DNA of 64,000 nucleotides from assembly GCF_003574965.1 (NCBI RefSeq), contig NZ_CP032317.1, positions 1 through 64,000 on the forward strand. Direction: 5' to 3'. Shown in pieces: positions 1 to 64,000 of this stretch. Position numbers and translations under genes: made by a program. The notes under the pieces are model-generated. The model saw only the letters and a list, made by a program, of their open reading frames with translations. It searched no databases and was not told where the DNA came from. This DNA comes from Hymenobacter oligotrophus. GTDB lineage: Bacteria; Bacteroidota; Bacteroidia; Cytophagales; Hymenobacteraceae. Positions within the stretch are counted from its first letter, which is position 1; every line of letters begins with the position of its first letter.

Positions 1-1575
1 ATGCAGAAGGATTGCCGTACCGTTTGGGCCAATTGCCTGCGCGTCATCCGGAGCAGTGTCGGAGAGCAGAGCTTCCGTACATGGTTTGAACCCATTGTAC
101 CGGTAGGCCTGCAGAAGAACCTGCTCATTATTCAGGTTCCTAGCCAATTCTTTTACGAATGGTTGGAGGAGCACTATGTTGACGTGCTCAAGAAGGCCAT
201 TGTGCAGGAACTCGGCGCCGAAGGCCAACTGGAGTACTCCATCGTGGTCGACCAAGGCAACGAGCAGGCCCGCCCGCGTACGGTAAACTTGCCCGCTACC
301 CGCGGCGGAGCGCCTCACCGGCCGCCCACGCACACGCCCATGGCAGCGCAGGTGCGCCCCATGGCGCCGCAGCAACCCAGTGGTGCGCAGGCCGGGCAGC
401 AAAACTTTGCCGGTGCCAACAGTGCCGCGTACCCCAAGCGCCAAACGCCGCCGGCCGCCGCTGCTGCCGTAGCCGCGGCTGCCGTGGCACCGCCGCCACC
501 GTTGCGCAACCCCTTTGAGGTGCGCGCCGTGTCGGACCGCAGCTACCTCGACTCCCAGCTGAACCAGAACTACACGTTCACGAACTACATCGAGGGCTCG
601 TGCAACCGGTTGGCGCGCTCGGCGGGCTGGGCCGTGGCCAACAAGCCGGGCACCACCTCCTTCAACCCGCTGATGATTTACGGCGGCGTGGGCCTAGGTA
701 AAACGCACTTGGTGCAGGCCATCGGCAACCACATCAAGGAGCATTCGGGCAACAAGTTCGTGCTGTACGTGTCGGCCGAGAAGTTTACCAACCAGTTTAT
801 TGAAAGCCTGAAAACCAACTCGGTGCAGGATTTCGGTAACTTTTACCTGCTGGTGGACATCCTGATTCTGGACGACGTGCAGTTCCTGGCCGGTAAAGAC
901 CGCACCCAGGAAATGTTCTTCCACATCTTCAACCACCTGCACCAGGCCGGCAAACAGGTTATCATGACCTCCGATGTGCCGCCGCGCGAGCTGAAGGGGT
1001 TTGAGGAGCGTTTGTTGTCGCGGTTTAAGTGGGGCCTTACCGCCGATCTGCAAAGCCCTGACTTTGAGACGCGCGTGGCCATCATCATGAACAAGATGCA
1101 GGCCGACGGCATCGACATTCCGCCGCAGGTAGTGGAGTACCTCGCGTACTCCGTGGAAACCAACGTGCGCGAGCTGGAAGGCGTGCTGATTTCGCTGATT
1201 GCGCAGTCCTCGCTGACGCGCCGCGAAATTGACCTGGAAATGGCCAAGCAGGCCCTGCGCCACATCATCGAGGATGTGGAGGCGGAGGTAAACCTCGACT
1301 TCATCCAGAAGACCGTGGCCGAACACTTCGGCATTGCGGTGGACTTGCTAAAGGCCAAAACCCGCAAAAAGGAAGTAGTTACCGCCCGCCAGGTGGCGAT
1401 GTACTTCGCCAAGGAGCACACCAACCACTCGCTCAAGAGCATTGGTTACCACTTCGGCGGCCGCGACCATAGCACTGTAATTCACTCGGTGCAAACCGTG
1501 TCGGACCTGATTGACTCGGACAAAACCTTCCGGACAACCATTCAGGAGCTGCGCAAGAAATTTACAAGCAAGTAG
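1..1575 (+). CDS. dnaA: Chromosomal replication initiator protein DnaA
   Basis: DnaA is the AAA+ initiator that binds DnaA boxes at oriC and opens the duplex. The 524-residue protein has the usual order: an N-terminal helicase-interaction domain (about 1-90, with the family stretch FYEWLEEHYV), a long Ala/Pro-rich linker (about 95-170, with runs of A and P), the AAA+ ATPase with Walker A GGVGLGKT at 228-235 and Walker B Asp-Asp at 291-292, and the C-terminal DNA-binding domain with the signature GGRDHST at 486-492. The ATG is the first base of the window and fits the usual N-terminus of Bacteroidota DnaA, so the gene looks complete. The upstream promoter and any upstream origin lie outside the window. 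Certain by motif content. Confidence 0.98.
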   Translation: MQKDCRTVWANCLRVIRSSVGEQSFRTWFEPIVPVGLQKNLLIIQVPSQFFYEWLEEHYVDVLKKAIVQELGAEGQLEYSIVVDQGNEQARPRTVNLPATRGGAPHRPPTHTPMAAQVRPMAPQQPSGAQAGQQNFAGANSAAYPKRQTPPAAAAAVAAAAVAPPPPLRNPFEVRAVSDRSYLDSQLNQNYTFTNYIEGSCNRLARSAGWAVANKPGTTSFNPLMIYGGVGLGKTHLVQAIGNHIKEHSGNKFVLYVSAEKFTNQFIESLKTNSVQDFGNFYLLVDILILDDVQFLAGKDRTQEMFFHIFNHLHQAGKQVIMTSDVPPRELKGFEERLLSRFKWGLTADLQSPDFETRVAIIMNKMQADGIDIPPQVVEYLAYSVETNVRELEGVLISLIAQSSLTRREIDLEMAKQALRHIIEDVEAEVNLDFIQKTVAEHFGIAVDLLKAKTRKKEVVTARQVAMYFAKEHTNHSLKSIGYHFGGRDHSTVIHSVQTVSDLIDSDKTFRTTIQELRKKFTSK

Positions 1576-1577
1576 CC

Positions 1578-1700
1578 TGTAGCGCGGGCTTGGCCACGCC
1601 TTCCTGCGGTTCAGCCCGCGTTTGCCAGAACATATTCGTCTGGGCAGCTCCGCGCGGTACCAATCGTTCTGCTAAACGCGGGCTAAAGCCCACGCTACAT
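1578..1700. repeat. REP/BIME-like inverted repeat downstream of dnaA
   Basis: The segment opens with TGTAGCGCGGGCTT and closes with AAGCCCACGCTACA in inverted orientation. Each inner flank carries CCCGCGTTTGCCAGAAC or a close variant, so the whole unit is one large imperfect palindrome. The same ends recur at 18567-18760, 55458-55595 and 62467-62561. The GTAG head followed by a GC-rich stem matches the REP signature known from RAYT-linked repeats. An ORF that runs through it (1590-1811) is judged spurious. Confidence 0.75.
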
Positions 1701-1702
1701 AA

Positions 1703-1727
1703 AAAAGCCCGCAGCAATGCGGGCTTT
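1703..1727. terminator. Bidirectional terminator between dnaA and the 1750-2247 gene
   Basis: The stem GCCCGC/GCGGGC has a 6-nt loop and is flanked by A5-6 on the left and T4 on the right. It can therefore end transcription from both convergent genes. Confidence 0.8.
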
Positions 1728-1749
1728 TGCATTTCAGAGCACCTAGGGC

Positions 1750-2247
1750 TTACAGCTCGGAAGCCGAACGCTCGCGCAGCTCAAGGCCGTTGCGCTGGGC
1801 AAAGTTGCTGAGCATGCCGCGCAGGTTTTGCCGCCGCTGGCGGCCGCGCACTTGGCGCAAATTGAGGGCGTAGCTGGTACCATCGTGCAGGCGGAGCAGC
1901 AGCTGGTTGGGCTCTAGGTCGAGGGCCCGCATTTCTTTGGCGGCAAAAGGCTGCTTGGGGGCAAACAGGCCAGACTTATGCACCAGGTAATCGGGCGTGA
2001 TTTCGAGGTAGGTTTGGGTGCCGAACAGCGGCAGGTTCTGCACCGAGATATAGAGCAGGAACACCACCGCCAGACCTAGGAACATCCAGTCGAGGTAGCG
2101 CAGCACGCCGGGCGTGCGGTTTGGGTCGCCGAGGATGGAAAGCAAAGGGTAGGCTACCGCTACCAAACCGAACACAAACTGCCCGAAAAACGGGACGCGG
2201 GAGGTGTTGGCCGGCTGCAGACCAATGCGGGTATAGGATGACGGCAT
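1750..2247 (-). CDS. Hypothetical membrane protein with two N-terminal TM helices
   Basis: This is a 165-residue protein of unknown function. Residues about 20-40 and 52-70 are hydrophobic and should form two membrane helices. The rest is a soluble, beta-rich stretch (YLEITPDYLVHKSGLF, then RLHDGTSYALNLRQV) that resembles the PH-like domain of small bacterial membrane proteins, and ends in a basic, Arg-rich tail. The PH-like reading is inference. A -7 box TAGTTTTG lies 24 nt upstream of the ATG at 2278-2271. It converges on dnaA. Confidence 0.7.
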   Translation of the reverse strand: MPSSYTRIGLQPANTSRVPFFGQFVFGLVAVAYPLLSILGDPNRTPGVLRYLDWMFLGLAVVFLLYISVQNLPLFGTQTYLEITPDYLVHKSGLFAPKQPFAAKEMRALDLEPNQLLLRLHDGTSYALNLRQVRGRQRRQNLRGMLSNFAQRNGLELRERSASEL

Positions 2248-2270
2248 AGGCAGGGGAGAGATTCAGCCGG

Positions 2271-2278
2271 CAAAACTA
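2271..2278 (-). promoter_or_regulatory. -7 promoter box (TAGTTTTG) of the 1750-2247 gene
   Basis: The minus strand reads TAGTTTTG, matching the Bacteroidota sigma-A -7 consensus TAnnTTTG, 24 nt upstream of the ATG. No clear -33 TTG is seen. Confidence 0.5.
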
Positions 2279-2350
2279 ATACAAAACCGTTGGGTGCGGA
2301 TTTAAGCACCCGGAGCCGCAACGCCGCGGCGTGCGGCCCCGGGTGGCTGT

Positions 2351-2776
2351 TCACTTCAGCTTAGCCTCCAAAGTCATTTCGGGTACGGCCGAGAGCAGCT
2401 GCGAAATGGGGCAGTTTTGCTTGGCGTCTTCGGCGTATCGCTGGAAATCCTCGGCGCTGAGGTTCGGTACCTGGCCAGAAGTAGTGACGGCAATCTTTAC
2501 CACTTTGGGCGACATGTTGCCCGGGTCGAGCGTCACCTTCGACTCGGTGCGCACCTGTGTGGGCGAGTAACCTTCGCGGGTAAGCAAGCTCACCAGGTAC
2601 ATGGTGTAGCAGGAGGCGTGGGCGGCTCCAATCAGCTCCTCGGGGTTGGTGCCCTTCTGGCCCTCAAACCGGGCGCCTACCGAATAGGGGACCTGAACCG
2701 TGCCGCTTTGCGTCGTGATTTCGCCGCTGCCTTTGATGTCGCCGTTCCAGACGGCCGTACCGCGTTGGTTGATCAT
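2351..2776 (-). CDS. OsmC/Ohr-family peroxiredoxin
   Basis: OsmC-family enzymes are cytoplasmic thiol peroxidases that reduce organic hydroperoxides. The 141-residue protein has the family length and both reactive cysteines in the expected context: Cys56 in AHASCYTM and Cys122 in KQNCPIS. The stretch GTNPEELIGAAHASC is the OsmC (rather than Ohr) form found in many Bacteroidota. The gene is monocistronic. A GC-rich hairpin without a T-tract lies just after the stop at about 2315-2341. The family is secure; the in vivo substrate is not known. Confidence 0.92.
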   Translation of the reverse strand: MINQRGTAVWNGDIKGSGEITTQSGTVQVPYSVGARFEGQKGTNPEELIGAAHASCYTMYLVSLLTREGYSPTQVRTESKVTLDPGNMSPKVVKIAVTTSGQVPNLSAEDFQRYAEDAKQNCPISQLLSAVPEMTLEAKLK

Positions 2777-2896
2777 GGTATTTGGGATAGGGGTGTGGGA
2801 GAATGAGCTGATGCGGTTTTAATACCAACAGAACAATGCGGAAGTTTAGGAAAGCAATGTAGTCATCGTATTCGCGCCGTATTATTCGTCAACATT

Positions 2897-3004
2897 ATGG
2901 ATGCAACGAGAAAAACAATTGGCTTTATCAATCTGACAGTTGACTTACGTAAGGCATTTATCTGTTTGGGATGGTTGGGTTTGGCTTTGTTTCTAATCGA
3001 CTAA
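2897..3004 (+). other. Upstream 35-codon ORF in the same frame as the 3005-3433 ORF, ended by TAA
   Basis: An ATG at 2897 opens 35 codons, with a hydrophobic segment FICLGWLGLALFLI, and ends at TAA 3002-3004. The reading frame continues directly into the 3005-3433 ORF. The two would make one 178-codon membrane protein if the TAA were absent, so this looks like the 5' part of a broken gene. It could also be a tiny membrane ORF in its own right or a sequencing error. Confidence 0.5.
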
Positions 3005-3433
3005 TTGTTCGATTACGTGCCTCTTGAAACCACGCATGATGGCTTACTCAAAGTGTTCAATAAACTTAAAAACCTGTTATTCTTTATTGTTTGGCCTGGC
3101 GCTGTGCTCCTGCATATCAAGCCAGTACTAAGTGAGCGGCAATGGTCTGTCGTGCGAATAATAAGCGTAATAATCAGCATGCCGTGGCTGTTAGTAGCCC
3201 TAGCGTTATCAGCCTTTGATAATGAAGAAAGGTGGAGAGACCGGCAGGTTGTATATCGGCATGCTACCAATCCAGAAGCGCGAATTGCCGCGCAGTATTT
3301 GGAAGATTGGCCCACGATCAACCAAGAAGAACGGGTTGTAAAGCTCACTCCTGTGCTGGCGTTGTGGCAGCGCGTCGAACCCGTAGATACGGCCACTTTC
3401 GACACAACGGGCTGGCAGCGCGTACCGCAATAG
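3005..3433 (+). CDS. Hypothetical membrane protein, probably the 3' part of an interrupted gene
   Basis: No family was recognised. The 142-residue reading begins at a TTG that directly follows an in-frame TAA. It shows two hydrophobic segments (about 22-42, LKNLLFFIVWPGAVLLHI, and 52-70, IISVIISMPWLLVALAL), then a soluble C-terminal domain rich in E, R, W and Q. Joined to the upstream 35 codons it would have three membrane helices. G+C here is about 42-45%, clearly below the neighbours, and codon use differs (TTA, ATA, AAT), which suggests recent acquisition or relaxed selection. Start and functionality are uncertain. Confidence 0.5.
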   Translation: MFDYVPLETTHDGLLKVFNKLKNLLFFIVWPGAVLLHIKPVLSERQWSVVRIISVIISMPWLLVALALSAFDNEERWRDRQVVYRHATNPEARIAAQYLEDWPTINQEERVVKLTPVLALWQRVEPVDTATFDTTGWQRVPQ

Positions 3434-3475
3434 CCGCTACATTTACCGCCCCGCCTTTTCCTCAAGTTCTTCCGC

Positions 3476-4972
3476 ATGGGCCTGAAGTCCTTCCTGAGCC
3501 GCCCGCTCGCCGCCTACACCGTTAGCCAGTACCAGAAATGGGCGCACCAGCCCGAGGTGGCCCAGCAGCGCATTCTGCAGAACCTGCTGCAGCAAGGCAC
3601 CGCCACGGCTTTCGGCCACGACCACGGCCTAGCCGATGTGCGCTCGGTGCAGGACTTTCAGGCGCACGTGCCAGTGCGCGACTACGAGGCCCTAGGTGCG
3701 TACTTCAACCGGGTGAAGGAAGGGGAGCGGGACGTGCTCTGGCCGGGCAAGCCGCTGTACCTGGCTAAAACATCGGGCACTACCTCCGGCACTAAGTACA
3801 TCCCCATCAGCCAAGACAGCATCGGCAACCACATCAACGGGGCCAAGGATGCTCTGCTACACTACGTGCACCGCACGGGCAAGCCGCAGTTTCTGGATGG
3901 CAAGCTCATCTTCCTCTCAGGCTCGCCCGAGCTAGAAGAGGTAGGCGGCATCCCGACGGGGCGTTTGTCGGGCATCAGCAACCACCACGTGCCGGCTTAC
4001 CTGCGCCGCAACCAGCTGCCGAGCTACGCCACCAACTGCATTGAGGATTGGGAGCATAAGCTCGACCGCATTGTGGACGAAACCCTAGGTCAGCCGATGA
4101 CGCTGATTTCGGGCATCCCGCCGTGGGTGCAGATGTATTTCGATCGGCTTACCGCACGCACGGGCAAGCTGGTAGGCGAGGTATTCCCCGAGTTCCAGCT
4201 GTTCGTGTACGGCGGCGTCAACTTCGAGCCCTACCGCCGCAAGCTGCTCGAAAGCATCGGCCGCTCGGTAGATACGCTGGAGCTGTTTCCGGCCTCCGAA
4301 GGCTTCTTTGCTTTTCAGGACGAGCCCGGTAACCCCGGCATGCTGCTGCTGGCCAACGCGGGTATCTACTTCGAATTTATTCCGGCCGAGCGGTTCTTCG
4401 AGCCCAACCCGCCGCGCCTGACGCTGGCCGACGTAGAGCTGGACAAGAACTACGCCTTGGTGGTAAGCTCCAACGCCGGCCTGTGGGGCTACTCCGTGGG
4501 CGACACGGTACGCTTTACCAGCTTGCGCCCGCACCGCGTGGTGGTATCGGGCCGCATCAAGCACTTCTTGTCGGCCTTCGGCGAGCACGTGATTGGCGAG
4601 GAGGTGGAGCAAACCTTGCGCGAGGCGCTGCAGCAGTTCGCGGAGGTGGAGGTGACGGAGTTTACCGTGGCCCCGCGCGTGAGCGAAAACAAAGCCGAAC
4701 CCTCGCGCCACGAGTGGCTGGTTGAGTTTGCCCGCCCGCCCCACGACCTAGGCGCCTTTGCCGCCGCATTGGATGCGGGTCTGCGCCGCCGCAACGTGTA
4801 CTACGACGACCTGCTCGCGGGCAATATTCTGGCGCCGTTGCTGCTCACGCCGCTGCCGGCTGGCGCTTTCCAGCGCTACATGAAAAGCCAGGGCAAACTA
4901 GGCGGACAGAACAAAGTACCTAGGTTGAGCAACGACCGGAAGCTGGCCGAAGGGTTACAAGCAGTTGGGTAG
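3476..4972 (+). CDS. GH3-family (auxin-responsive promoter-like) acyl-adenylating enzyme
   Basis: GH3 proteins belong to the ANL adenylating superfamily; plant members conjugate amino acids to hormone acyl groups, while the role of bacterial members is largely unknown. The 498-residue protein carries the nucleotide-binding motif TSGTTSGTKYIPIS starting at residue 99, YGGVNFEPYR and the acidic LFPASEGFFAFQ segment, and keeps full family length. The C-terminal part (KVPRLSNDRK) also fits GH3 proteins of Bacteroidota. The ATG at 3476 gives the typical start (MGLKSFLSRPLA). It stands alone, convergent with the HTH gene. The acyl substrate cannot be read from sequence. Confidence 0.9.
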   Translation: MGLKSFLSRPLAAYTVSQYQKWAHQPEVAQQRILQNLLQQGTATAFGHDHGLADVRSVQDFQAHVPVRDYEALGAYFNRVKEGERDVLWPGKPLYLAKTSGTTSGTKYIPISQDSIGNHINGAKDALLHYVHRTGKPQFLDGKLIFLSGSPELEEVGGIPTGRLSGISNHHVPAYLRRNQLPSYATNCIEDWEHKLDRIVDETLGQPMTLISGIPPWVQMYFDRLTARTGKLVGEVFPEFQLFVYGGVNFEPYRRKLLESIGRSVDTLELFPASEGFFAFQDEPGNPGMLLLANAGIYFEFIPAERFFEPNPPRLTLADVELDKNYALVVSSNAGLWGYSVGDTVRFTSLRPHRVVVSGRIKHFLSAFGEHVIGEEVEQTLREALQQFAEVEVTEFTVAPRVSENKAEPSRHEWLVEFARPPHDLGAFAAALDAGLRRRNVYYDDLLAGNILAPLLLTPLPAGAFQRYMKSQGKLGGQNKVPRLSNDRKLAEGLQAVG

Positions 4973-5016
4973 CCGAGTTCAGCCTGACTCATCTTTGCGC
5001 GTACGACTTAGTGTTG

Positions 5017-6039: not shown

Positions 6040-6066
6040 AAAACGCGAACGGCTGCCCTAGGTAAT

Positions 6067-6167
6067 ACTTGCAAAATCTGAGTTGGCAGGCCGCCGAAGT
6101 TGCAATAAATACCGCTTGCGGCAAACTCTGCGGGCGTTGAGGCGGGCAGTTGCAATTTCTGCAAGTG
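6067..6167. promoter_or_regulatory. Candidate operator pair between the HTH regulator and the beta-barrel gene
   Basis: ACTTGCAAAATCTG (6067-6080) recurs as its inverted near-copy at 6147-6167, and that second site is itself a small palindrome TTGCA-n5-TGCAA. The pair sits between divergent genes, one of which encodes a DNA-binding protein. Confidence 0.35.
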
Positions 6168-6194
6168 GCGGAGCCGCAGAGCTCGGCAAGGCCG

Positions 6195-6226
6195 TTGGGC
6201 GGCAGGTGGCCAGTGCTCTAGCTTTG
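6195..6226 (+). promoter_or_regulatory. Promoter of the DUF3575 gene (TTG / TAGCTTTG)
   Basis: TAGCTTTG at 6219-6226 matches TAnnTTTG, with TTG at 6195-6197 about 21 nt upstream. The ATG is 35 nt downstream. Confidence 0.5.
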
Positions 6227-6261
6227 GGCAGTGCTGCGTTTCACCTAGCCCAAACCATGTT

Positions 6262-7820: not shown

Positions 7821-7970
7821 GGAGAAGCCGCAATTGCCAGTTTCGAAGGTACCGAAAACCCCAGAGTACGCCGCAACCTAGGGCAAGCAACAAACCGTAA
7901 AGCGGGTTTCCTGCCGGGATTGTGTTCTTTTGCGCAGAAGGCTTTCAGTACCGGGTCTTTCGCTTTTGCC

Positions 7971-8426: not shown

Positions 8427-8433
8427 AGACAAG

Positions 8434-8441: not shown

Positions 8442-8481
8442 CTTACCAGTGCCGCCCGCAGTTGCAGGCATTCTCGCTAGC

Positions 8482-9648
8482 ATGTCTTCGTATCAGCCCC
8501 GTTCTCTTGCCCTCCTAGGTTCTACCGGTTCCATCGGCACCCAAACGCTCGATGTCGTGCGGGCCCACCCGGGGCGCTTCTTGGTAGTAGCTCTCACCGC
8601 CCAGCGCAATGCCGACTTGCTGGTGGCGCAAGCGCGCGAATTTCGGCCCGCGGTAGTGGTAATTGGCGACGAAGCCCAGTACGCCACGGTGCGCGAGGCC
8701 TTGACTGATCAGCCCGAAACCCAGGTAATGACCGGGCTCGATGCCTTGGCCGAAGCCGCCGCCCGTCCCGATGTGGATGTGGTGCTTACGGCGCTTGTGG
8801 GCTACGCTGGCTTGCTGCCCACCATAGCGGCCCTTAAAGCCGGCAAAACCATCGCCCTGGCCAACAAGGAAACCCTGGTGGTGGCCGGGCAGCTGGTTAC
8901 GCGCCTGGCCCGGCAGTCCGGCTCGGCCATTTACCCCGTCGACTCGGAGCACTCGGCCATTTTTCAATGCCTGGTAGGGGAGGAGCCTAATTCGGTTGAG
9001 AAAATCATCCTCACGGCTTCGGGTGGGCCTTTCCGGGGCCGCTCGGCGCAGGAACTGGCTACCGTAACCAAGGCCCAGGCCCTGAAGCACCCCAACTGGG
9101 ACATGGGCGCCAAAATCACCATCGACTCGGCTTCCCTGATGAACAAAGGCTTGGAGGTGATAGAAGCCAAATGGCTTTTTGGGCTGACCGACGAGCAGAT
9201 TGAAGTGGTAGTACACCCGCAAAGCATCATTCACTCGCTGGTGCAGTTCACGGATGGCTCGCTGAAGGCGCAGCTCGGGCTACCCGATATGAAGCTGCCC
9301 ATTCAGTACGCCCTGGGTTACCCCGAGCGCCTGCCCAACAATTTTCCTCGGTTCAGCTTCCTGGATTACCCACAGCTCACCTTCGAGCGGCCCGATGGCG
9401 ACACCTTCCGCAACCTGCCGCTGGCGTTTGAGGCCATGCGCCGGGGCGGCAACGCGCCGTGCGTACTCAACGCCGCCAACGAGGTAGCCGTAGCCGCGTT
9501 CCTGCGCGACCAGATCGGCTTTCTGCAATTGCCCGATGTGGTAGAAAACTGCCTCGCCCGCGTTTCGTACCTTGCCGAACCTTCGCTCGACGACTACGTG
9601 CACACCGACGCCGAAACTCGGCGGGTGGCTTCGGAGTTGGTGAAGTGA
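8482..9648 (+). CDS. dxr: 1-deoxy-D-xylulose 5-phosphate reductoisomerase
   Basis: Dxr converts DXP to 2-C-methyl-D-erythritol 4-phosphate with NADPH, the committed step of the MEP isoprenoid pathway. The 388-residue protein shows the N-terminal NADPH motif GSTGSIGTQT, the metal-binding Asp154 and Glu156 in YPVDSEHS, the substrate loop segment LTASGGPFRG, and the catalytic segment MNKGLEVIEAKWLF. ATG 8482 was chosen because the family starts shortly before the NADPH motif; GTG 8449 would add 11 residues. In many Bacteroidota dxr is followed directly by rseP; here a four-helix-bundle element lies between them. Confidence 0.97.
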   Translation: MSSYQPRSLALLGSTGSIGTQTLDVVRAHPGRFLVVALTAQRNADLLVAQAREFRPAVVVIGDEAQYATVREALTDQPETQVMTGLDALAEAAARPDVDVVLTALVGYAGLLPTIAALKAGKTIALANKETLVVAGQLVTRLARQSGSAIYPVDSEHSAIFQCLVGEEPNSVEKIILTASGGPFRGRSAQELATVTKAQALKHPNWDMGAKITIDSASLMNKGLEVIEAKWLFGLTDEQIEVVVHPQSIIHSLVQFTDGSLKAQLGLPDMKLPIQYALGYPERLPNNFPRFSFLDYPQLTFERPDGDTFRNLPLAFEAMRRGGNAPCVLNAANEVAVAAFLRDQIGFLQLPDVVENCLARVSYLAEPSLDDYVHTDAETRRVASELVK

Positions 9649-18839: not shown

Positions 18840-18963
18840 GGGGGACTTGCTCTGCCAGAACGGCACGCCTAGGTTTTCGCCACAGTTTTTGCAGCCTGGG
18901 CAACCCTTACCCCATTGCTCAGTATCTAATCAGCTGGCGCGCCCTAAGCGTGGCCCCTTGCTC

Positions 18964-36158: not shown

Positions 36159-36540
36159 TGGCAGTTCCTCCGCTGTGTGTATAGGTCTAGCGCAAAAGCC
36201 CTATTCGGAGGCAGCCCTACTCAGTTGCACATTCACGCAGACCTAGGGCCTCAGCCGGTCAACATTTGCCAAACGCCTAGGTGAACGAGTGGTATGAGCG
36301 ACGAAAGGACCCGCAAAACCGAGATTAAAGCAGAAAGTTTTAGCAACGAACATATTTTGTATAACACTTATAGCATTTAACAAGAAATTAATACACAGTT
36401 AATTACAAACTCAACTAAGGAATAAACAACGCAACATTGCCGCTACGGCGCGCTACACCCCTGTTTTTACATGGTGCATTCAGGTTAAAACCAATTAACT
36501 TGCTTTTTCACTCACCATATTTTCCAATACCAAATCATTT
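36159..36540. other. Intergenic region upstream of susC pair 4
   Basis: This 382-bp gap contains two CCTAGG sites (36242, 36276), then an AT-rich stretch and TTCACTCACCA at 36507-36517, 24 nt before the susC-4 ATG. No ORF is seen. The susC-4 promoter is presumably here. Confidence 0.55.
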
Positions 36541-41390: not shown

Positions 41391-41426
41391 AAAAGAGGCG
41401 GCTCCCTAGGTGGGGCCGCCTCTTTT
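41391..41426 (-). terminator. Terminator of prfB
   Basis: A 12-bp stem (AAAAGAGGCGGC with its complement) encloses a 12-nt loop containing CCTAGG. The minus-strand transcript ends in U4. Confidence 0.85.
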
Positions 41427-41453
41427 GCCGTATGGCACCTAGGGCATTGGCAG

Positions 41454-45221: not shown

Positions 45222-47933
45222 TTAGTTCCAGGGTGCTACGGCGGCCCGGTGGGCGGCACGCCGCTTGTCGTAAAGCTTACGAAAGGTAATATATTCTGAC
45301 GAGGGAAGCAACGTGGCAAGTTTAGCAAAAGACGCGGTGGCGTATTCTTCCAAACCCGCATCGGCGGCGGCCAGCACGTAGCCCCGCAGCATCGCCACCG
45401 ACTCGGGGTTGTACGACACCGCCCGGCGCATGATTTCGTAGGCCGTAACAGGGTCTTGGTGCCGCGCAAAGTACGCCGACGCCTGCAGCATGCCCGCTTC
45501 GTCGAACGGATCGGCTTGAGTGAGTTGCCGGTATCTCTTGGCTGCTGCCTTGGCATCTGGGGTGGCGGCGGCGGTAGCATAGGCTTTGGCCAAAGGCCGC
45601 GCAACCTTGGGTGCTGGCAGAATCTGGCCGGCCAAAAGGGTGCCTAGGCGGTTTTCGCTGCCTGGCACGGCGGCAGCGGCGCGGCGCGCAACTGCGCGGG
45701 CCGAGTCGGGCTGGCCGGCCCAAGCCAAGGCGTAGGCCCTAGGTTGCAAGGCCGCAGCGTTGCTGGCTTGTTCGGCCAGGGCCAAGCGGGCCGCCGCCGA
45801 GGGGTACAGGCCACGCTCGAGCAGATACATGCCCAGCACGTGGTGGTAATAACCGCTTGTAGCGCCCGTGGCCAAAGCTTCGAGCTGATCGAAGCCGGGC
45901 GCTGGGCGCGCGCTGCGCAGCTGCTGCAGCCCGCTCACAAACGTAAGCTGATCGGCAAACGGATCGTTGGCTTGCACTTGCAGCAGGTTTCGCACCAGCG
46001 GCAGCGTGGTCGTATCGTGGCCGGCTGCCTGGGCCAGTCCTAGGTGGTAGAGCTGCGCAAACTGCACCACACTCAGCACCGAATCGACGCCCAACTTGGT
46101 GGCGGCAACGGGTTGGTAACGGCCGCGCAGCAACTCGAGCACCAGGGTGTTGTTTTGCCAAGCGGGCCACTCGGGGTTGGGCGTTTCGCGGGCGGCATCT
46201 TGCGCGCCCTGCAGCTGATTATTTTTCAGCAGAAAAGCCAACCAGTTGGTGTGCGGTACGGGGTCGGCGTTGCTGGCGGCAGCGGCGCGGCTGTAATAGT
46301 GCAGCACCGAGTCGGGCAGCGAGGAGCGCGAGTAGAGCTGCGCCATTTCGGCGTTGAGTCGGCCGCTGGCCGGAAAAGCCTTCAGGCTTTGACGCAGCAC
46401 CTGTTGGCGTTCGAAAAAGTCGGTGGGCTGATCGAACCGCGCGGCCAGCCGCATCCACACCTTCTCGTTGGGCTCGCGGCGCAAGGTGCTGCGCAAAATG
46501 TTGATTTCGTTTTGCCGCTGGGCCTTGGCCTGGTACAGCGCCGCCCTACCTAGGGCTGCCCGCGCATTCAGCGGGTCAAGTTGGTCGGCCTCGGCGTAGT
46601 AGCGCTCCGCCAACAAGGCGAGGTACAGGTTATCGGGCTGCTGCTCGCTTTGCAGGCGCGTTAGGTCGCCGAATTGAATGTACTGGCCGGCGCGGGCACG
46701 GTCAAGCAAATCAAACTGGTTGCGCAGCAACACCGCGCCCACCAGGCCCACGCCCAGGATATACACCAAGTAATAGGGCATGCGACGCGGTTCGTAAGCC
46801 ACGCGGTGCACCTGCAGGCGCTGCTGAATCAGCGGGCCGAAATTGAGCAGTATGTACAGAAAAAAAGCTAGGCCAATGGCACCCAAGGCCAGGGCTACAA
46901 AGTCGCGCGTGGCGTGAAGCAGGGGCCCGTTGAGCGTGGCCGCAGCATAACCCAAGGTGCCCGTGGCCACTAACAGCAGTGCTATGTACAGCCAAGGAGC
47001 CAATTGCCGCGGCAGCCACGCGCGGTAAGTGGGCTGGCGCAAGGGCTGGGTAAACCAACCCACCGCGGCCGCAATCAGCAGCAGCGCCAACGGGTTGAGC
47101 TGAACCCCCGGCAGTACGGCCAGCTGGCCGCCGTTCCAGGTGTACATCAGCAAAATGCCGAGCAACAAAGCGCCCGACAGCACAAACGGAACCAAGCCGA
47201 ACCGGCCCTTGGGCGTAGCGCCTTGTGTGTTCAGCCAGAGCAAACCGAATATTAACTCGCCCCCAAGCCACAAGGCCAGCAACGCCACCACAGCCGCACC
47301 GGCTAACGTACCGTATGCCGCCAAGTGCAGCACCACGAAACTGGCTGGGTGCCGGGTTTTAACCAAAAGCAAAGCACCTAGGGCCGCTATCAGCAAGGCA
47401 AACAACGCCAACCGCCAGCTTAAGCTTACGCCCTCGAAAAAAGCATGCAGTGCGAAAGCCGCGCCCACAAGCACCGCAATGCTTAGGATCAGGAAGTACT
47501 GATCCTGCTCGCCAAAAACGCCCAGCAAATCCATGCTGAGCGACATCAGCAGGAAAATAACCGCCGCTGCCCCGGCCACGAAAGCCGGGCGCCGCAGTTG
47601 GCTAATGGCGGCCAGCCAAACAACTAGGCCCAGCCCAAGCAACGCAACCCAAGCCGCCGCCGCCGCCGGCCACAGATTGGGCCCGGCAACGTCGTAGGTT
47701 TGGGTAACGAGGTAAGCGTTGGCCGGCAGGTTCAGGGTATCGGTGCCGGCGGGCAGCTTGGCCACAGTGGCGGGCACGGGCGTGAGCTGCGCAATGGTGC
47801 CAATGGGCAGCGTGTGCTCGGGCCCCGCAACGTAGAAATAAAGCGCCAGCCCCAGTGCCGCCAAGAGCACTCCGAGCAGGCCCCGCAGCAAGCTGCGCGG
47901 GGTATTGTGCGTTACCGATGAAAGCTCGCGCAC
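45222..47933 (-). CDS. Large membrane protein with C-terminal TPR-like repeats
   Basis: No family was recognised. The 903-residue protein has about a dozen hydrophobic segments in the first 420 residues, with many Leu/Ala-rich helices (LLGVLLAALGLALYFYVAG, FLLMSLSMDLLGVFG). The second half is soluble and helical, with TPR-like blocks (AERYYAEADQLDPLNARAALGRAA, ASAYFARHQDPVTAYEIMRRAVSYNPES). It is co-transcribed with gatC (3-nt gap) and the ABC ATPase (12-nt gap), so the ATPase may be its partner, which is inference. Confidence 0.75.
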   Translation of the reverse strand: MRELSSVTHNTPRSLLRGLLGVLLAALGLALYFYVAGPEHTLPIGTIAQLTPVPATVAKLPAGTDTLNLPANAYLVTQTYDVAGPNLWPAAAAAWVALLGLGLVVWLAAISQLRRPAFVAGAAAVIFLLMSLSMDLLGVFGEQDQYFLILSIAVLVGAAFALHAFFEGVSLSWRLALFALLIAALGALLLVKTRHPASFVVLHLAAYGTLAGAAVVALLALWLGGELIFGLLWLNTQGATPKGRFGLVPFVLSGALLLGILLMYTWNGGQLAVLPGVQLNPLALLLIAAAVGWFTQPLRQPTYRAWLPRQLAPWLYIALLLVATGTLGYAAATLNGPLLHATRDFVALALGAIGLAFFLYILLNFGPLIQQRLQVHRVAYEPRRMPYYLVYILGVGLVGAVLLRNQFDLLDRARAGQYIQFGDLTRLQSEQQPDNLYLALLAERYYAEADQLDPLNARAALGRAALYQAKAQRQNEINILRSTLRREPNEKVWMRLAARFDQPTDFFERQQVLRQSLKAFPASGRLNAEMAQLYSRSSLPDSVLHYYSRAAAASNADPVPHTNWLAFLLKNNQLQGAQDAARETPNPEWPAWQNNTLVLELLRGRYQPVAATKLGVDSVLSVVQFAQLYHLGLAQAAGHDTTTLPLVRNLLQVQANDPFADQLTFVSGLQQLRSARPAPGFDQLEALATGATSGYYHHVLGMYLLERGLYPSAAARLALAEQASNAAALQPRAYALAWAGQPDSARAVARRAAAAVPGSENRLGTLLAGQILPAPKVARPLAKAYATAAATPDAKAAAKRYRQLTQADPFDEAGMLQASAYFARHQDPVTAYEIMRRAVSYNPESVAMLRGYVLAAADAGLEEYATASFAKLATLLPSSEYITFRKLYDKRRAAHRAAVAPWN

Positions 47934-55475: not shown

Positions 55476-55595
55476 TCCGCGTCCGCAGATAGTAAAATCA
55501 AACGGCTCAGAGCATAAGCACTGGGCCGTTATTGTATAAAGCTAGTCTTGCTTTACCGGTCGTTCTGGCAAACGCGGACTGAAGTCTGCGCTACA
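55458..55595. repeat. REP/BIME-like pair overlapping the comB 3' end
   Basis: GTAGCGCGGACTTTGTAGTC at the left is matched by GACTGAAGTCTGCGCTACA at the right in inverted form, with TTCTGGCAAACGCGGACT inside. The middle has a further hairpin (AACGGCTCAG with CTGGGCCGTT). The comB stop codon lies in the left repeat. Confidence 0.75.
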
Positions 55596-55609
55596 GCGGC
55601 TACATCGTG

Positions 55610-55936: not shown

Positions 55937-55948
55937 GGCACCTAGGGG

Positions 55949-56407: not shown

Positions 56408-56453
56408 ACAACAAGGGGTAAAGACGAACAGGAACCGCAAAGAAAGGCAGCAA

Positions 56454-59059: not shown

Positions 59060-59065
59060 TCACAA

Positions 59066-59094
59066 CAAAACTAACGCAGCTTGGGAAGAGGCAA
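59066..59094 (-). promoter_or_regulatory. Promoter of mltG (TTG / TAGTTTTG)
   Basis: On the minus strand, TTG at 59094-59092 lies 18 nt before TAGTTTTG (59073-59066), close to the TTG start codon at 59059. Confidence 0.5.
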
Positions 59095-59110
59095 CCGCGT
59101 GGGTTGCCTC
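59088..59110 (-). terminator. Hairpin after the ScfR-type regulator gene
   Basis: GAGGCAACC (59088-59096) pairs with GGTTGCCTC (59102-59110), followed by TTCCC on the minus strand. It is a weak terminator and overlaps the mltG -33 region. Confidence 0.45.
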
Positions 59111-59174
59111 GGCCGCGTGTACTACCATAATCAACCAGCTCCGGCCATTGCCCGAGCCGTAAGGCACCTAGGGC

Positions 59175-60653
59175 CTAAAGGCCTTGCACCAACGCCGCAA
59201 CGGCCGCCGCCAGTTCGTTTTTGCGTTGTTGCTCCGCAATCTTGACGGGCGGAGCGGCCCGCACCTCGCAGTCCGGAATGGAGCACCGCTCGCAGGTTTC
59301 GTTTACCCAGCGCATCGGAATTGCCTCGTCGCCCAAAAACGCCACCTTCTGCCGCAAATTGTCGTCGATGGGCAAACCAACGGTTACGCTGGTGGCGTGG
59401 CCCGAGCCATCGTAGCGGGCAATGGTAAGGCAAAGGTATTCGTCGGGGGTTTGCCAGTAGCGCGAGCGTTGGGCGGCCACGCGCAAGCCGGGGCTGCCGG
59501 CCTGGCGCGCCTGCTCCATCAGCCAAAGGCTTACCCACCGGCGGCAGTAGTGCTCTTGCAGCTCGTTGCCGTGGGGGTTGTGCAGGCGCGAAAGGTGCAA
59601 CTCTTTGGTCAGGCGGAAACCTTGGGCGTCGGGCTCTTGGTCGAAACGCAGGAAAAACAAACTGCCAATGCCAAAGTGCCGCGCCAGCAGGTTGGTTACG
59701 CGCTGCAGCAGCATTTCCGGCGACACCTCGTAGCGCGCAAGCAAGCCGAGCAGCAGGGCCGCATTCCAACGCGGCGCCGAGAAAAACGCCTGCAGATCGG
59801 CCACCAGCTGGCTTTCCTCCATCAGCAACGCCACGGCGAAGTAAGAAGCGCGAAAGTGGTTCAGCACCTGCTCGAACGAGCCAGGCGTGGCCGAGGGTAC
59901 ATTGGTGTAGGGCCGCTCTTTCAGCCCTAGGTAGTTGAACGCTACCTCGCGCCCTAGCACAAAGATTTCCTGCGCCCGCGAAAGCCCAGGCCGCAGCAGC
60001 AAGCGCCGCGCGGCAGGCTGGTACACCGAGCGCAGCTCCTGCAGGGCGGGGTATTCGGCCAGGCTGTGGCGGTCGATGAGGTAATGGTACTCCTGGCCGA
60101 GCAAGTCTTCGAGCTGATGCAAATCGAAGGGCGGTTCGGTGCGTAGCCGGAAGCGGGCTACGCAGCTGCGCACGGCGTCTTCGAGGTCGTCGAAGTAGTT
60201 GTCGTGCATTTCCTGGTAGGAGCGGAGCGCCGCCAGGTAAAAGTTTTCCTGCCGCATTTCGTAGTTGCGGGCCAGCTCCAGTATGGTGCTGATGAAGGCC
60301 ATTACCCGCGTGGGCGCATCCGATATCATCTCGATAAGCCGAGCCGGATCGAGCCCAAACATATCCAGCGGAAACTCGCGCAGCACATCCGACTGCAACA
60401 GCTCCGAAATGGGCGCCAAGCGCTTACCTAGGTGCAACGACACCAACTCGTCGTAGCTCACGCCCAGCACCCGCGCAAAGGCCATGATCTTGTCGGCCTT
60501 GGGGTACTTCTTGCCCTTTTCAATCTCGTTGAGATACGAAACCGAAACGTCGACCGCTTGCGCCAGGGCGGCTGGCGTGAGGCTGCGCTCCTGTCGGAGC
60601 TGACGCAGCTTTAAGCCGAAGATTAAGCGGACTACCTGAGCGTGGGTAAGCAT
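59175..60653 (-). CDS. ScfR/RamB-type HTH regulator, divergent from aceB-aceA
   Basis: The 492-residue protein has an N-terminal XRE-type HTH (about 10-66, LRQLRQERSLTPAALAQAV, VSVSYLNEIEKGKKYPK), a helical middle and an IrrE-like domain, and a C-terminal Cys-rich segment (CERCSIPDCEVRAAPP). This layout fits the short-chain fatty acyl regulator (ScfR) group, which includes RamB, a repressor of acetate and glyoxylate genes in Actinobacteria. Its place opposite malate synthase and isocitrate lyase supports control of that pathway; the ligand is inference. ATG 60653 was chosen; the frame upstream lies in the control region. Confidence 0.85.
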   Translation of the reverse strand: MLTHAQVVRLIFGLKLRQLRQERSLTPAALAQAVDVSVSYLNEIEKGKKYPKADKIMAFARVLGVSYDELVSLHLGKRLAPISELLQSDVLREFPLDMFGLDPARLIEMISDAPTRVMAFISTILELARNYEMRQENFYLAALRSYQEMHDNYFDDLEDAVRSCVARFRLRTEPPFDLHQLEDLLGQEYHYLIDRHSLAEYPALQELRSVYQPAARRLLLRPGLSRAQEIFVLGREVAFNYLGLKERPYTNVPSATPGSFEQVLNHFRASYFAVALLMEESQLVADLQAFFSAPRWNAALLLGLLARYEVSPEMLLQRVTNLLARHFGIGSLFFLRFDQEPDAQGFRLTKELHLSRLHNPHGNELQEHYCRRWVSLWLMEQARQAGSPGLRVAAQRSRYWQTPDEYLCLTIARYDGSGHATSVTVGLPIDDNLRQKVAFLGDEAIPMRWVNETCERCSIPDCEVRAAPPVKIAEQQRKNELAAAVAALVQGL

Positions 60654-60710
60654 GCAACGGTGGAGTGGTATGAAAGCAAAGAAACAAAACCCGCCCCAGA
60701 TGCAGTGAAA

Positions 60711-60753
60711 AGCTTGATTCAAGCTAAATTTTATCATTTAGCGAAAATTCGCT
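60711..60753. promoter_or_regulatory. Candidate operators of the ScfR-type regulator
   Basis: Two palindromes lie between the divergent genes: AGCTTGA-T-TCAAGCT at 60711-60725 and AGCGAA-AA-TTCGCT at 60740-60753. The second abuts the aceB -35 element, where a bound repressor would block RNA polymerase. Confidence 0.5.
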
Positions 60754-60783
60754 TGACAATAATAATTCGCTCGCGTATGTTTG
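60753..60783 (+). promoter_or_regulatory. Promoter of aceB (TTGACA-N17-TATGTTTG)
   Basis: TTGACA (60753-60758) lies 17 nt from TATGTTTG (60776-60783), which fits both the classical -35/-10 spacing and the Bacteroidota -7 box TAnnTTTG. The ATG is 40 nt downstream. It is the best-formed promoter in the window. Confidence 0.75.
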
Positions 60784-60823
60784 ATACAGATACTCGCAAC
60801 ACAGCCCCACCAACCAAAACACT

Positions 60824-62452
60824 ATGGAAACGCTTGACCAGCCAACTGTTGCCCTCAAAACTGATTATTTATGCCCCGAGCGCGTGAAAGTGCTTGGCCG
60901 CTGCACCGCCGCTTACGCCGAGGTACTTACCCCTTCGGCTCTAGCTTTTGTGGCAGCCTTGCACCGCCACTTTGAGGCACGGCGGCGCGAGCTGTTGCAG
61001 CGCCGGGTGCAACGCCGTGCCGAGTTTGCCGCTGGCCGGCTACCCGATTTTCTGGCCGAAACCAAGCAGCTGCGCGAAAGCGACTGGAAGGTAGCTGAGT
61101 TGCCCACCGATTTATTGGACCGCCGCGTGGAGATTACCGGCCCCACCGAGCGCAAAATGATCATCAACGCCCTAAACTCGGGTGCCAAGGTGTTCATGGC
61201 CGATTGCGAAGACTCGCTGGCGCCTACTTGGGATAACGTGGTGCAAGGCCAGATTAACCTGCGCGACGCCGTGCGCCGCACCATCTCGCTCGAAACCCCG
61301 GCCAAAACTTACAGGCTAAACGAGCGCACCGCTACCCTAATGGTGCGCCCCCGCGGCTGGCATCTGCCCGAAAAGCACGTGCTCGTGGATGGCGAAGAAG
61401 TGAGCGGCGCGCTCTTCGACTTTGGGCTGTATTTCTTCCACAACGCCCACGAGCTGGTTGCCCGCGGCACTGGCCCGTACTTCTACCTGCCCAAGCTCGA
61501 AAGCTACCTAGAGGCGCGCCTCTGGAACGAGGTGTTTGAGTTTGCGCAGTGGGAGCTGAAAATTCCGAAGGGCACCATCAAGGCCACGGTGCTCATCGAA
61601 ACGCTGCCGGCTGCCTTCGAAACCAACGAAATTTTGTGGGAGCTGCGCCAGCACTCGGCCGGCCTCAACTGCGGCCGTTGGGATTACATCTTCTCTTACA
61701 TCAAAACCCTAGGTGCCCGGCCCCAGTACCGCCTGCCCGACCGCTCGCAAGTAACCATGACGGTGCCCAACATGGCCGCCTACGTGCGCTTGGTAATCGA
61801 CACTTGCCACCGCCGCGGGGTACACGCCATGGGCGGCATGGCCGCGCAAATTCCGATTAAGGACAACCCCGCCGACAACGCCATTGCCCTCGACAAGGTG
61901 CACAACGACAAAGTACGCGAGGCTACCCTTGGGCACGATGGCACGTGGGTGGCGCATCCTGCGTTGGTACCCGTTGCGCTGGAGGTGTTCGATAAGCTGA
62001 TGCCGCAGCCTAACCAGATTGACAAGCCCCGCTCGGAGCAGCCGCTGCCCAGCGCCGCCGAGTTGCTGCAAGCCCCCGAAGGCACCATTACCGAAGACGG
62101 CATGCGCCAGAACATCGATGTAGCCCTTCGCTACCTAGGAGCCTGGATTGGTGGCAACGGCTGCGTGCCGCTCTACAACCTAATGGAAGATGCCGCCACC
62201 GCCGAAATTTCGCGCGTGCAACTGTGGCAGTGGCTACACACCCCCGAAACCGAGCTGGCCGATGGCCGAGCCATAACGCCGGAGCTGTACCGCGAGCTGC
62301 TGCAAGATGTGGTGGATAAGTTGCGGCGCGAAGTAGGGGAGGATACCTACCAGGAGTACTACCGCTCCGCCGTGCACCTGCTCGACCGCCTCGTGACGGC
62401 TGATCAGTGCGCCGATTTTCTTACGCTGCCAGCTTACGAAGTACTGGCTTAA
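60824..62452 (+). CDS. aceB: Malate synthase A
   Basis: Malate synthase condenses glyoxylate with acetyl-CoA, the second step of the glyoxylate bypass. The 542-residue protein is of the A (AceB) type by length and motifs: VFMADCEDSLAPTWDN, RPRGWHLPEKHVLVDGE, TVLIETLPAAFETNEILWEL and CGRWDYIFSYIK. It is the first gene of the aceB-aceA pair behind a strong promoter flanked by palindromes, so it is probably induced on acetate or fatty acids. A REP-like repeat lies between it and aceA. Confidence 0.96.
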   Translation: METLDQPTVALKTDYLCPERVKVLGRCTAAYAEVLTPSALAFVAALHRHFEARRRELLQRRVQRRAEFAAGRLPDFLAETKQLRESDWKVAELPTDLLDRRVEITGPTERKMIINALNSGAKVFMADCEDSLAPTWDNVVQGQINLRDAVRRTISLETPAKTYRLNERTATLMVRPRGWHLPEKHVLVDGEEVSGALFDFGLYFFHNAHELVARGTGPYFYLPKLESYLEARLWNEVFEFAQWELKIPKGTIKATVLIETLPAAFETNEILWELRQHSAGLNCGRWDYIFSYIKTLGARPQYRLPDRSQVTMTVPNMAAYVRLVIDTCHRRGVHAMGGMAAQIPIKDNPADNAIALDKVHNDKVREATLGHDGTWVAHPALVPVALEVFDKLMPQPNQIDKPRSEQPLPSAAELLQAPEGTITEDGMRQNIDVALRYLGAWIGGNGCVPLYNLMEDAATAEISRVQLWQWLHTPETELADGRAITPELYRELLQDVVDKLRREVGEDTYQEYYRSAVHLLDRLVTADQCADFLTLPAYEVLA

Positions 62453-62466
62453 GCAGCCCTAAATCA

Positions 62467-62561
62467 TGTAGCGCGAGCTTCGGTCCGCAGCCTAGGCGTG
62501 CAAGTGCCAATCCGCTGGATGATTGGTGTTACCGCCGAACTGGGCTGAAGTTCGTGCTACA
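62467..62561. repeat. REP-like inverted repeat between aceB and aceA
   Basis: TGTAGCGCGAGCTTCGGTCC at the left is matched by GGGCTGAAGTTCGTGCTACA at the right in inverted, diverged form; CCTAGG lies inside. It is the fourth locus of the repeat family found at 1578, 18567 and 55458. Confidence 0.65.
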
Positions 62562-62690
62562 TCGGGCTACTGCTTGCCTGCTGCGGGCACATCCATCTGC
62601 TTACCGCTTGCCTTAAGCCGCCTAAAAAAAGTGGCCTGGCTTCTCGTTGCCCTAACCGTCTCTGTTTTCTACTCCCAAAACACTACTCCT

Positions 62691-63989
62691 ATGAACCGCG
62701 CCGAACGCATTGCCGCCATCAACCAAGATTGGGCTACCAACCCCCGCTGGAAAGGCATTGAGCGACCCTACTCTGCCGAAGACGTTGTAAAGCTGCAAGG
62801 GTCTGTAAGAATTGAACACTCGTTGGCGCGGCACGGGGCCGAGCGGCTCTGGAAGCAGCTGCACACCGAGCCCTACGTGGCAGGCCTAGGAGCCCTTACC
62901 GGCAACCAGGCCGTGCAGGAGGTGCAGGCCGGCCTCAACGCCATCTACCTTTCGGGCTGGCAAGTAGCCGCCGACGCCAACCTGGCCGGCCACATGTACC
63001 CCGACCAAAGCCTATACCCCGTCGACTCGGTGCCCGCCGTGGTGCGCCGCATCAACAACGCCCTGCTCCGCGCCGATCAAATTCAGCACCTCGATGGCAA
63101 AGACGGCGACGAAAACCGCGTGAATTACCTCGTGCCTATTGTGGCCGATGCCGAAGCCGGTTTTGGCGGCAACCTGAACGCGTTTGAGCTGATGAAGATG
63201 ATGATCGAAGCCGGCGCCGCGGGCGTGCACTTCGAGGATCAGCTGTCGTCGGCGAAGAAGTGCGGGCACCTAGGCGGCAAGGTGCTGGTGCCTACCCAAG
63301 AGGCCGTGCAAAAGTTGGTTGCCGCCCGCCTTGCTGCCGATGTGCTGGGTGTGCCCACGCTCATTGTGGCCCGCACCGATGCCGACGCCGCCGACCTGCT
63401 CACCTCCGATGTAGACGAGCGCGACAAGCCCTTTGTGCTGCAAGAAGCCGAACGCACTTCCGAGGGCTTTTACCGGGTGCGCTGCGGTGTAGAGGCGTGC
63501 ATTGCGCGCGGCCTGGCCTATGCACCTTATGCCGATATGCTCTGGATGGAAACTTCGCACCCCGACCTGGAGCAGGCCCGGCAGTTTGCTGAAGGCATCC
63601 ACGCCAAATACCCGGGCAAAATTCTGGCCTATAACTGCTCGCCCTCGTTCAACTGGGCCGCCAAGCTGACGGTGGAGCAGATGGAAACCTTCCGCGAAGA
63701 GCTGGCTGCCATGGGCTTCAAGTTTCAGTTCATCACACTGGCCGGTTTCCACGCCCTCAACACCAGCATGTTCGAGCTAGCCCAAGCCTACCGCGACCGG
63801 GGCATGGCCGGCTACTCGGAGCTGCAACAACGTGAGTTTGCCCTCCAGCAACACGGCTTTAAGGCCGTGAAGCACCAGGCTTTCGTGGGCACAGGCTACT
63901 TCGATGCTGTGCAGAACGTGGTGTCGAGCGGGCAGGCTAGCACGGCCGCGCTGGTGGGCTCTACCGAAGAAGCGCAGTTTCAGCACTAA
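62691..63989 (+). CDS. aceA: Isocitrate lyase
   Basis: Isocitrate lyase splits isocitrate into succinate and glyoxylate, the first step of the glyoxylate bypass. The 432-residue protein has the catalytic KKCGH motif (Cys191) in [11 protein letters not shown], the substrate segment [10 protein letters not shown], and the C-terminal [12 protein letters not shown] and [12 protein letters not shown] stretches. Length matches the E. coli enzyme. ATG 62691 was chosen; an in-frame extension to 62523 begins inside the REP-like repeat and is not lyase-like. The gene ends 11 nt before the window edge; any later operon gene is not visible. Confidence 0.97.
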
Positions 63990-64000
63990 GCCACTAGCCA

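Follow-up and report, generated by a model that had tools for sequence, protein, structure and literature searches.

Why does the palindrome CCTAGG recur so often in the DNA of Hymenobacter oligotrophus? The stretch analyzed here, referred to as the window, comprises positions 1-64,000 of NZ_CP032317.1, and its source genome has the handle G000 (other G numbers are genome handles as well, L numbers are locus handles, and g3, g4 and g5 are genus codes). An earlier note on this DNA had put the number of CCTAGG copies at about 93, against some 20 expected by chance, i.e. a four- to fivefold excess. The exact figures agree: 93 copies in 64 kb (1.45 per kb) compare with 20.4 predicted from base composition, which is a 4.6-fold excess and gives CCTAGG the highest observed/expected ratio of all 64 palindromic hexamers in the window. 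CTAG as such is not in excess there (162 copies, with about 230 expected by hand arithmetic from the composition). The entire genome contains 5678 CCTAGG in 4,188,814 bases and only 67 copies of GGATCC, the reversed word that served as control, and samples of the chromosome hold 1.3-1.4 copies per kb. We tentatively propose a self-DNA signal that spans the genome, is specific to the lineage and has CCTAGG at its core; it would have the approximate form GC(C/G)CCTAGGTGC, be present at 1.4 per kb of chromosome and serve in DNA uptake or recombination, a reading that we regard as possible rather than probable.

The signal works at the level of the DNA and not at the level of codons. In the genes of the window, 67 CCTAGG face 8.2 +/- 2.6 in 200 within-gene synonymous shuffles, none of which exceeded 15. 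In 464 kb of G000 starting from dnaA, with 339 crude genes and 50 such shuffles, the genes contain 425 copies against 44.9 +/- 5.9, and the excess thus persists 9.5-fold under the codon-pair-aware null that had been named beforehand as the way to refute it. The non-coding DNA of the same 464 kb holds 201 copies with 20.3 expected from a first-order Markov model, and its density of 2.53 per kb is 2.3 times the coding density of 1.11 per kb, “non-coding” including some missed genes, as gene boundaries are the output of a crude gene caller. The word is therefore not a codon-pair feature. Its frequent reading as Leu-Gly arises because the DNA-level preference sits where the genetic code permits it: the 425 in-gene sites comprise 386 in the frame xxC-CTA-GGN, 39 in the frame CCT-AGG and none in the TAG-stop frame, and CTA makes up 61% of the Leu codons in the context C_GG, compared with 4.9% elsewhere. 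The claim that CCTAGG is almost always Leu-Gly applies to the genes of the window (64 of 67 sites are xxC-CTA-GGN), but more than a quarter of the sites, 26 of 93, do not lie wholly inside any called gene, and the supposedly single CCT-AGG exception at 4919 is one of three in these crude gene calls (4919, 18868 and 45738).

The motif in G000 is longer than CCTAGG and mostly asymmetric, reading approximately GC(C/G)CCTAGGTGC in one direction. Among 652 sites in the 464 kb, 357 are flanked as ACCTAGGG/CCCTAGGT and 185 as ACCTAGGC/GCCTAGGT, and the former pair, which had already been noticed as a frequent flanked form, accounts for 53 of the 93 window sites. The symmetric forms ACCTAGGT and CCCTAGGG occur only 10 and 9 times, where independent flanks would give about 135 and 62 by hand calculation, and most sites in G000 therefore have a direction. 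The logo of 172 oriented non-coding sites reads G(0.52) C(0.73)/G(0.23) CCTAGG T G(0.51) C(0.47), with the T position fixed by the way in which sites were oriented. The description as a six-base palindrome thus holds for the core, while the unit in this genome is mostly an asymmetric octamer with weaker flanks. Both orientations are used equally from dnaA onwards (289/284 in the 464 kb), and the counts are 44/30 in the last 60 kb and 60/67 at 2.0-2.1 Mb, so that an orientation bias along the replichore, as in case of Chi or KOPS (FtsK-orienting polar sequences), is not found. The spacing in the 464 kb is near random (mean 711 bp, coefficient of variation (CV) 0.95). Between genes, the density is 4.48 per kb in convergent, 2.70 in same-direction and 1.97 in divergent arrangements; DNA uptake sequences (DUS) are likewise enriched between convergent genes.

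Inverted motif pairs at a spacing of exactly 33 bp were found eleven times in 624 kb of G000, including window positions 41405-41443, with about 0.3 expected by hand. Their inner sequences are unrelated to one another, the hairpins that they would form have predicted energies between -36.6 and -18.6 kcal/mol and are followed by few T, and seven of the nine pairs in the first 464 kb lie between called genes.

In the family, the motif is distributed patchily. Only six of 150 Hymenobacteraceae genomes contain more than 5000 CCTAGG (G000 5678, G004 5325, G025 6212, G058 7530, G079 5949, G137 8806), and the remaining 144 contain 54-876, with G149 (876), G052 (661), G123 (609) and G067 (574) at the top. 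The genus code of the window comprises eight genomes, of which three (G000, G004, G025) are motif-rich and five motif-poor; in lon, the two other rich congeners are 92% identical to G000 and the five poor ones 82-84%. The simplest reading, albeit not proved, is that CCTAGG was gained on the stem of the three-genome rich clade. For 53 of the 93 window sites the outgroups yield a consensus, which is already CCTAGG in 2 cases and departs from it at one base in 22, at two bases in 20, at three in 6 and at four of the six in 3. Once present, motif sites are kept better than other words: of the CCTAGG sites of G000 that could be aligned, 46 of 63 are intact in G004, where hexamers as a whole reach 50.5% and the word takes rank 30 of 705, and 41 of 61 are intact in G025 (hexamers as a whole 43%, rank 13 of 706), in both cases ranking first among the palindromes. 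As for the control word, GGATCC is nearly absent (0-10 copies) from a subset of g5 genomes and has hundreds of copies in others, which looks like restriction avoidance.

The sampled plasmid DNA of G000 and G004 is nearly devoid of the motif. Three small contigs of G000, which resemble Hymenobacter plasmids as judged on the first 8 kb of each, contain 2 CCTAGG in 40.0 kb (of 42.2), none in 31.6 kb and 1 in 11.2 kb, where the composition predicts 13, 11 and 4; taken together, these are 3 copies in 82.7 kb compared with about 27 expected. Samples of 40 and 60 kb from two plasmids of G004, 100 of 259 kb in all, contain 6 and 2 copies. Small contigs of two other rich genomes differ among each other: in G025, the 12.5-kb contig has 2 copies and the first 20 kb of the 259-kb contig 1, and the first 20 kb of the 89-kb contig have 25, which is the chromosomal level; as for G058, 1 copy is present in the initial 20 kb of the 97-kb contig, and the corresponding samples of the 101-kb and 13-kb contigs are motif-rich.

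The preferred flanks change from genome to genome. G058 prefers CCCTAGGG (59 of 114), G079 ACCTAGGT (65 of 118) and G137 ACCTAGGG/C/A (101 of 163), and the octamer is thus palindromic in G058 and G079, and asymmetric in G000, G004 and G025. A scan of 21-kb dnaA loci extended this to other words, the following holding among the loci listed. Hymenobacter CA2-7 and BT559 carry words similar to GGCTAGCCC. In Pontibacter, AAGTATA is present in seven loci with 36-65 copies, the 65 copies of P. chinhatensis including a tandem array of about ten; AGGTATA is present in four loci with 42-63 copies, and AACTATA in P. populi with 74 copies. No such word excess is seen in the 21-kb dnaA loci of P. diazotrophicus and P. 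pamirensis, and eight 10-kb stretches of Hymenobacter gave no clear new word. The array of P. chinhatensis (L025, 18649-18721) is a perfect tandem repeat with 10.4 copies of AAGTATA. L033, L044, L012, L009 and G149 (L197-L201) offer the candidate words GGCTAGCCC, GCTAGC, CCTACCCC and GGTAGCTA, mostly weaker ones.

When the combined word ARSTATA, i.e. A(A/G)(G/C)TATA, is counted over all 150 genomes, g3 is the one genus code with a strong excess, and on account of this motif we take g3 to be Pontibacter; g4 reaches about 1.5 times control. Among the 50 g3 genomes, the word is 3-12 times as frequent as its reversed control in 40 (top ratio 11.9), 2-3 times in 3 and less than 2 times in 7; the top count is 20,730 in G018, about 5 per kb. 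The larger g3 genomes carry less of it (Spearman -0.61 for the ratio and -0.74 for the excess per Mb, in 50 genomes with rounded sizes and kinship ignored). The Pontibacter words are found in at least five of the six gene frames and on both strands, and AACTATA is balanced in 300 kb of G018 (427 vs 443). Aligned on TA, the commonest letters of the dialects are CA-CC-TA-GG-GC, CA-GG-TA-TA-GC, AA-AG-TA-TA-AA and CA-AC-TA-TA-GT, and the dialects may share a single ancestor. On a DnaA tree of 49 rows, from which G004, G025 and G015 (no DnaA by the rule used) as well as G010 were left out, the dialect labels are clustered, with 9 changes compared with 16.5 after shuffling and none of 200 shuffles as low. 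Dialects with a shared core thus follow phylogeny in Pontibacter, while no clustering is seen for the few labels of Hymenobacter, where GCTAGC takes 3 changes in 3 rows and CCTAGG 2 changes in 2 rows.

Pontibacter sites change their dialect in place at shared loci. In 28 comparisons of the four AGGTATA loci with the seven AAG-dialect loci, 2-10 of 18-35 aligned sites are exactly the other dialect, where the same substitution at control 7-mers predicts 0.5-1.2 switches (best case 10 of 35 vs 1.2). When the AACTATA sites of P. populi are aligned to four of the seven loci with AAGTATA, 5 of 40, 8 of 45, 0 of 38 and 3 of 39 have switched, with 0.3-0.4 expected. Within a dialect, four pairs keep 26 of 36, 35 of 43, 25 of 39 and 15 of 25 sites (60-81%), compared with 23-35% of all 7-mers; the loci in these comparisons are related and hence not independent.

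How could such a pattern come about? We infer a sequence-specific DNA-binding reader that co-evolves with the motif and takes it as a mark of self. This reader would recognize the motif on either strand, shift its specificity over time and mark the chromosome, and it would most likely act in DNA uptake or recombination. Motif-bearing DNA would then be preferentially taken up or recombined, and the motif would accumulate by transformational drive, as DUS do, with an uptake machinery that works without a type IV pilus. In a wider and more speculative version, which we consider rather doubtful, Hymenobacter and Pontibacter would share a Bacteroidota self-DNA system, in which one evolving reader would recognize the ten-base frame (C)A-N-N-T-A-N-N-G-(C), each lineage would have put thousands of copies of its own dialect into its chromosome, and the acquisition of DNA would be directed towards that of kin with no type IV pilus involved.

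Several points weigh against the self-DNA signal. PF00437, the ATPase family of type IV pili and type II secretion, was over the cut-off in none of 21 genomes, 5 weak matches below it being found in Pontibacter genomes; a Neisseria-type receptor is therefore unlikely, and a classical uptake sequence that is based on type IV pili was rejected for lack of this ATPase. Foreign islands as gaps in the motif find no support in the chromosome: the two emptiest 8-kb regions of the 464 kb, neither of them foreign, hold an rRNA operon and an operon for alternative complex III and cytochrome oxidase adjoining ribosomal L9. In case of the motif-poor plasmids, a recent arrival may serve as an explanation as well. 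The CCTAGG core occurs in genomes of two genus codes, which may reflect repeated gain. In all 12 Pontibacter dnaA loci, which are orthologous, the dnaA strand carries more copies of the motif than the other strand, although the 300 kb of G018 are balanced. Two of the Hymenobacter dialects are palindromic, unlike DUS, and we know of no transformation in these genera. The densest Pontibacter genome, with about 5 copies per kb, moreover exceeds the highest DUS density of about 2.5 per kb given in PMC3630211, in a comparison of words that differ in length. According to PMC7965970, natural transformation exists in Riemerella of the same phylum, and R. columbina preferred its own DNA; the Riemerella k-mers listed there consist of runs rich in A or T, and their function is unproven.

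What else could produce a word like this? A methyltransferase might mark the motif, and biased mismatch repair might create and keep it, as in Elhai's model for HIP1 (highly iterated palindrome 1) of cyanobacteria. The palindromic core and the density of about one per kb are HIP1-like, the likeness to HIP1 suggested in the earlier note being borne out by an iterated word far above the codon-aware null, and G000 has an HsdM-type enzyme (PF02384) as well as an MmeI-like type IIG restriction-modification enzyme (G000:C1:2003398-2006958). MmeI-like enzymes are a family with asymmetric and changeable specificity. The presence of this enzyme, at first a promising candidate, does not track the motif, and it was set aside: such a protein exists in the motif-poor G015, G035 and G083 and was not found in the motif-rich G025, G057, G082 and G084. 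In the relatives G030, G087, G020, G010 and G052, it is split or just fragments of it were found. PF00145, PF01555, PF02384 and PF02086 were searched in 18 genomes and matched in 8, 13, 15 and 4 of them, PF07669 in 23 genomes with 20 matches (17 over the cut-off), and none of these five Pfam families was found in all six motif-rich genomes, a search that unusual or divergent enzymes could escape. G025 has one PF01555 match on its 12.5-kb contig and none for the other four families, so that G000 and G025, both motif-rich, share none of the five. In cyanobacteria, every genome with such an iterated word had a candidate methyltransferase (PMC4390886), a rule that does not hold here for the five families searched. 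The methylation idea is weakened, because no family is common to the six rich genomes, and as the near-random spacing (CV 0.95) also speaks against it, we consider this alternative unlikely.

We judge just as unlikely that the motif is bound by a protein that is associated with the nucleoid or structures the chromosome, and that would mark the chromosome without directing any strand-specific movement. The chromosome-wide and near-random placement, the lack of strand skew, the highest density outside genes and the absence from sampled plasmids agree with such a symmetric site, which is what survives of an earlier chromosome-organizing idea, the strand-oriented version in the manner of KOPS or Chi not being supported, given the lack of skew in G000. 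Against it stand the near-absence from five poor congeners and the loss in some Pontibacter, and the motif is therefore dispensable. A fast change of dialects would also be unusual for a structural protein.

It is quite improbable that the motif is driven by mutation or gene conversion, i.e. by a nuclease or repair enzyme that converts near-matches without any use to the cell. While several bases have changed at many single sites and the distribution across genomes is patchy, both as expected of such a drive, it does not fit the conservation within dialects described above, nor do plasmids in the same cells appear converted. Vsr acts on CTAG-like contexts. Among 18 genomes searched, it is absent from the rich G000, G025, G058 and G137 and occurs in six (the rich G004 and G079, and G035, G005, G111 and G149), and it was rejected as the cause, as its presence does not track the motif. 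That codon usage or frequent Leu-Gly pairs spelled with CTA produce the word as an artefact has a negligible chance, in spite of the CTA-GGN reading at 386 of 425 in-gene sites, since the synonymous shuffles of the window and of the 464 kb (425 vs 44.9), the equal excess outside genes and the use of five or six of six gene frames by the Pontibacter words rule out codon-pair bias as well as chance.

Table 1. CCTAGG sites and selected features of the window.
Feature	Position	Strand	Remarks
CCTAGG sites 1-25	693, 1742, 2075, 3691, 4084, 4747, 4919, 6057, 6306, 6534, 7654, 7877, 8514, 10306, 11149, 11437, 11833, 12209, 12412, 12559, 13607, 13694, 14706, 16009, 16033		
CCTAGG sites 26-50	16651, 17448, 17532, 17805, 18003, 18213, 18868, 19428, 20391, 20514, 20838, 21206, 22133, 22547, 23504, 25823, 26193, 26838, 27222, 28691, 29141, 30143, 30992, 32443, 32776		
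CCTAGG sites 51-75	33217, 33736, 35455, 36093, 36242, 36276, 40438, 41405, 41438, 42633, 43845, 44463, 45643, 45738, 46039, 46549, 47377, 49129, 49560, 49737, 50027, 50240, 50855, 53244, 54221		
CCTAGG sites 76-93	54524, 54902, 54968, 55109, 55941, 56762, 57311, 57533, 57890, 58746, 59167, 59926, 60427, 61708, 62134, 62491, 62885, 63269		
CCTAGG in DnaA Walker A codons (G-L-G-K)	693..698	+	kept in G025 and G004; CTGGG in G030, G020 and G010
CCTAGG in 1-deoxy-D-xylulose 5-phosphate (DXP) reductoisomerase gene	8514..8519	+	8512-8521: CTCCTAGGTT in 3/3 motif-rich genomes, CTGCTGGGCT in 5/5 outgroups; three silent changes
CCTAGG read CCT-AGG (Pro-Arg), GH3-family gene	4919..4924	+	
CCTAGG read CCT-AGG, AAA/HslU-like gene	18868..18873	+	
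CCTAGG read CCT-AGG, 903-aa gene without Pfam match	45738..45743	-	open frame 45222-47933, -
Oppositely oriented CCTAGG pair, 34 bp apart	36242..36281		intergenic; ACCTAGGG ... CCTAGGT
Inverted CCTAGG pair, exactly 33 bp apart	41405..41443		between convergent genes; CCCTAGGTG ... CACCTAGGG

Another palindrome of the window, TGCGCA, is 3-fold over-represented (62 vs 20.4) and is likewise common in most dnaA loci of Hymenobacter, Pontibacter and Rufibacter.

If dialect signatures of this kind point to a DNA-binding reader, that reader would be at work in common environmental bacteria. The occurrence of rich and poor close relatives together with the switching of dialects in place constitutes a natural experiment on how such a signal originates, spreads and changes. 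The motif-rich Hymenobacter sp. YIM 151858-1 and the motif-poor Hymenobacter sp. CRA2, whose DnaA matches that of the window at 91%, form a pair in which repair, structural and uptake models could be compared directly.

Which known systems come closest? Chi and KOPS are short over-represented words of chromosomes, as is CCTAGG, which in G000 has no strand bias. The uptake signal sequences of Pasteurellaceae are uptake words comparable to DUS. To our knowledge, genome-wide dialect signatures have been described in two groups of bacteria, both of them users of type IV pili, and cyanobacteria have such signatures in another form. The earlier note was aware of no description of such a word for this group, and none for Hymenobacter or Pontibacter turned up in the searchable parts of open-licence PubMed Central (PMC) papers; a table of PMC1939737 lists GCCTAGGC among under-represented palindromes, its effect being given as unknown. 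With HIP1 and the alternate HIPs (PMC4390886), the present motif shares the iterated short palindromic core at about one per kb and a patchy occurrence, other words taking its place in relatives, but no methyltransferase family of those searched tracks the word, and the octamer is asymmetric in the clade of the window. DUS differ in that the type IV pilus ATPase was not found here, some of the present dialects are palindromic, and the phylum is another one. According to PMC3630211, the DUS of Neisseriaceae reach up to 5918 copies in 2.4 Mb and also exist as dialects. Both systems have a short word that recurs thousands of times, on either strand and much more often than expected by chance, and dialects that follow phylogeny around a conserved core, which is CTG in DUS and TA here. 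If the wider version of our reading is true, uptake-type sequences would exist outside the families of Neisseria and Haemophilus.

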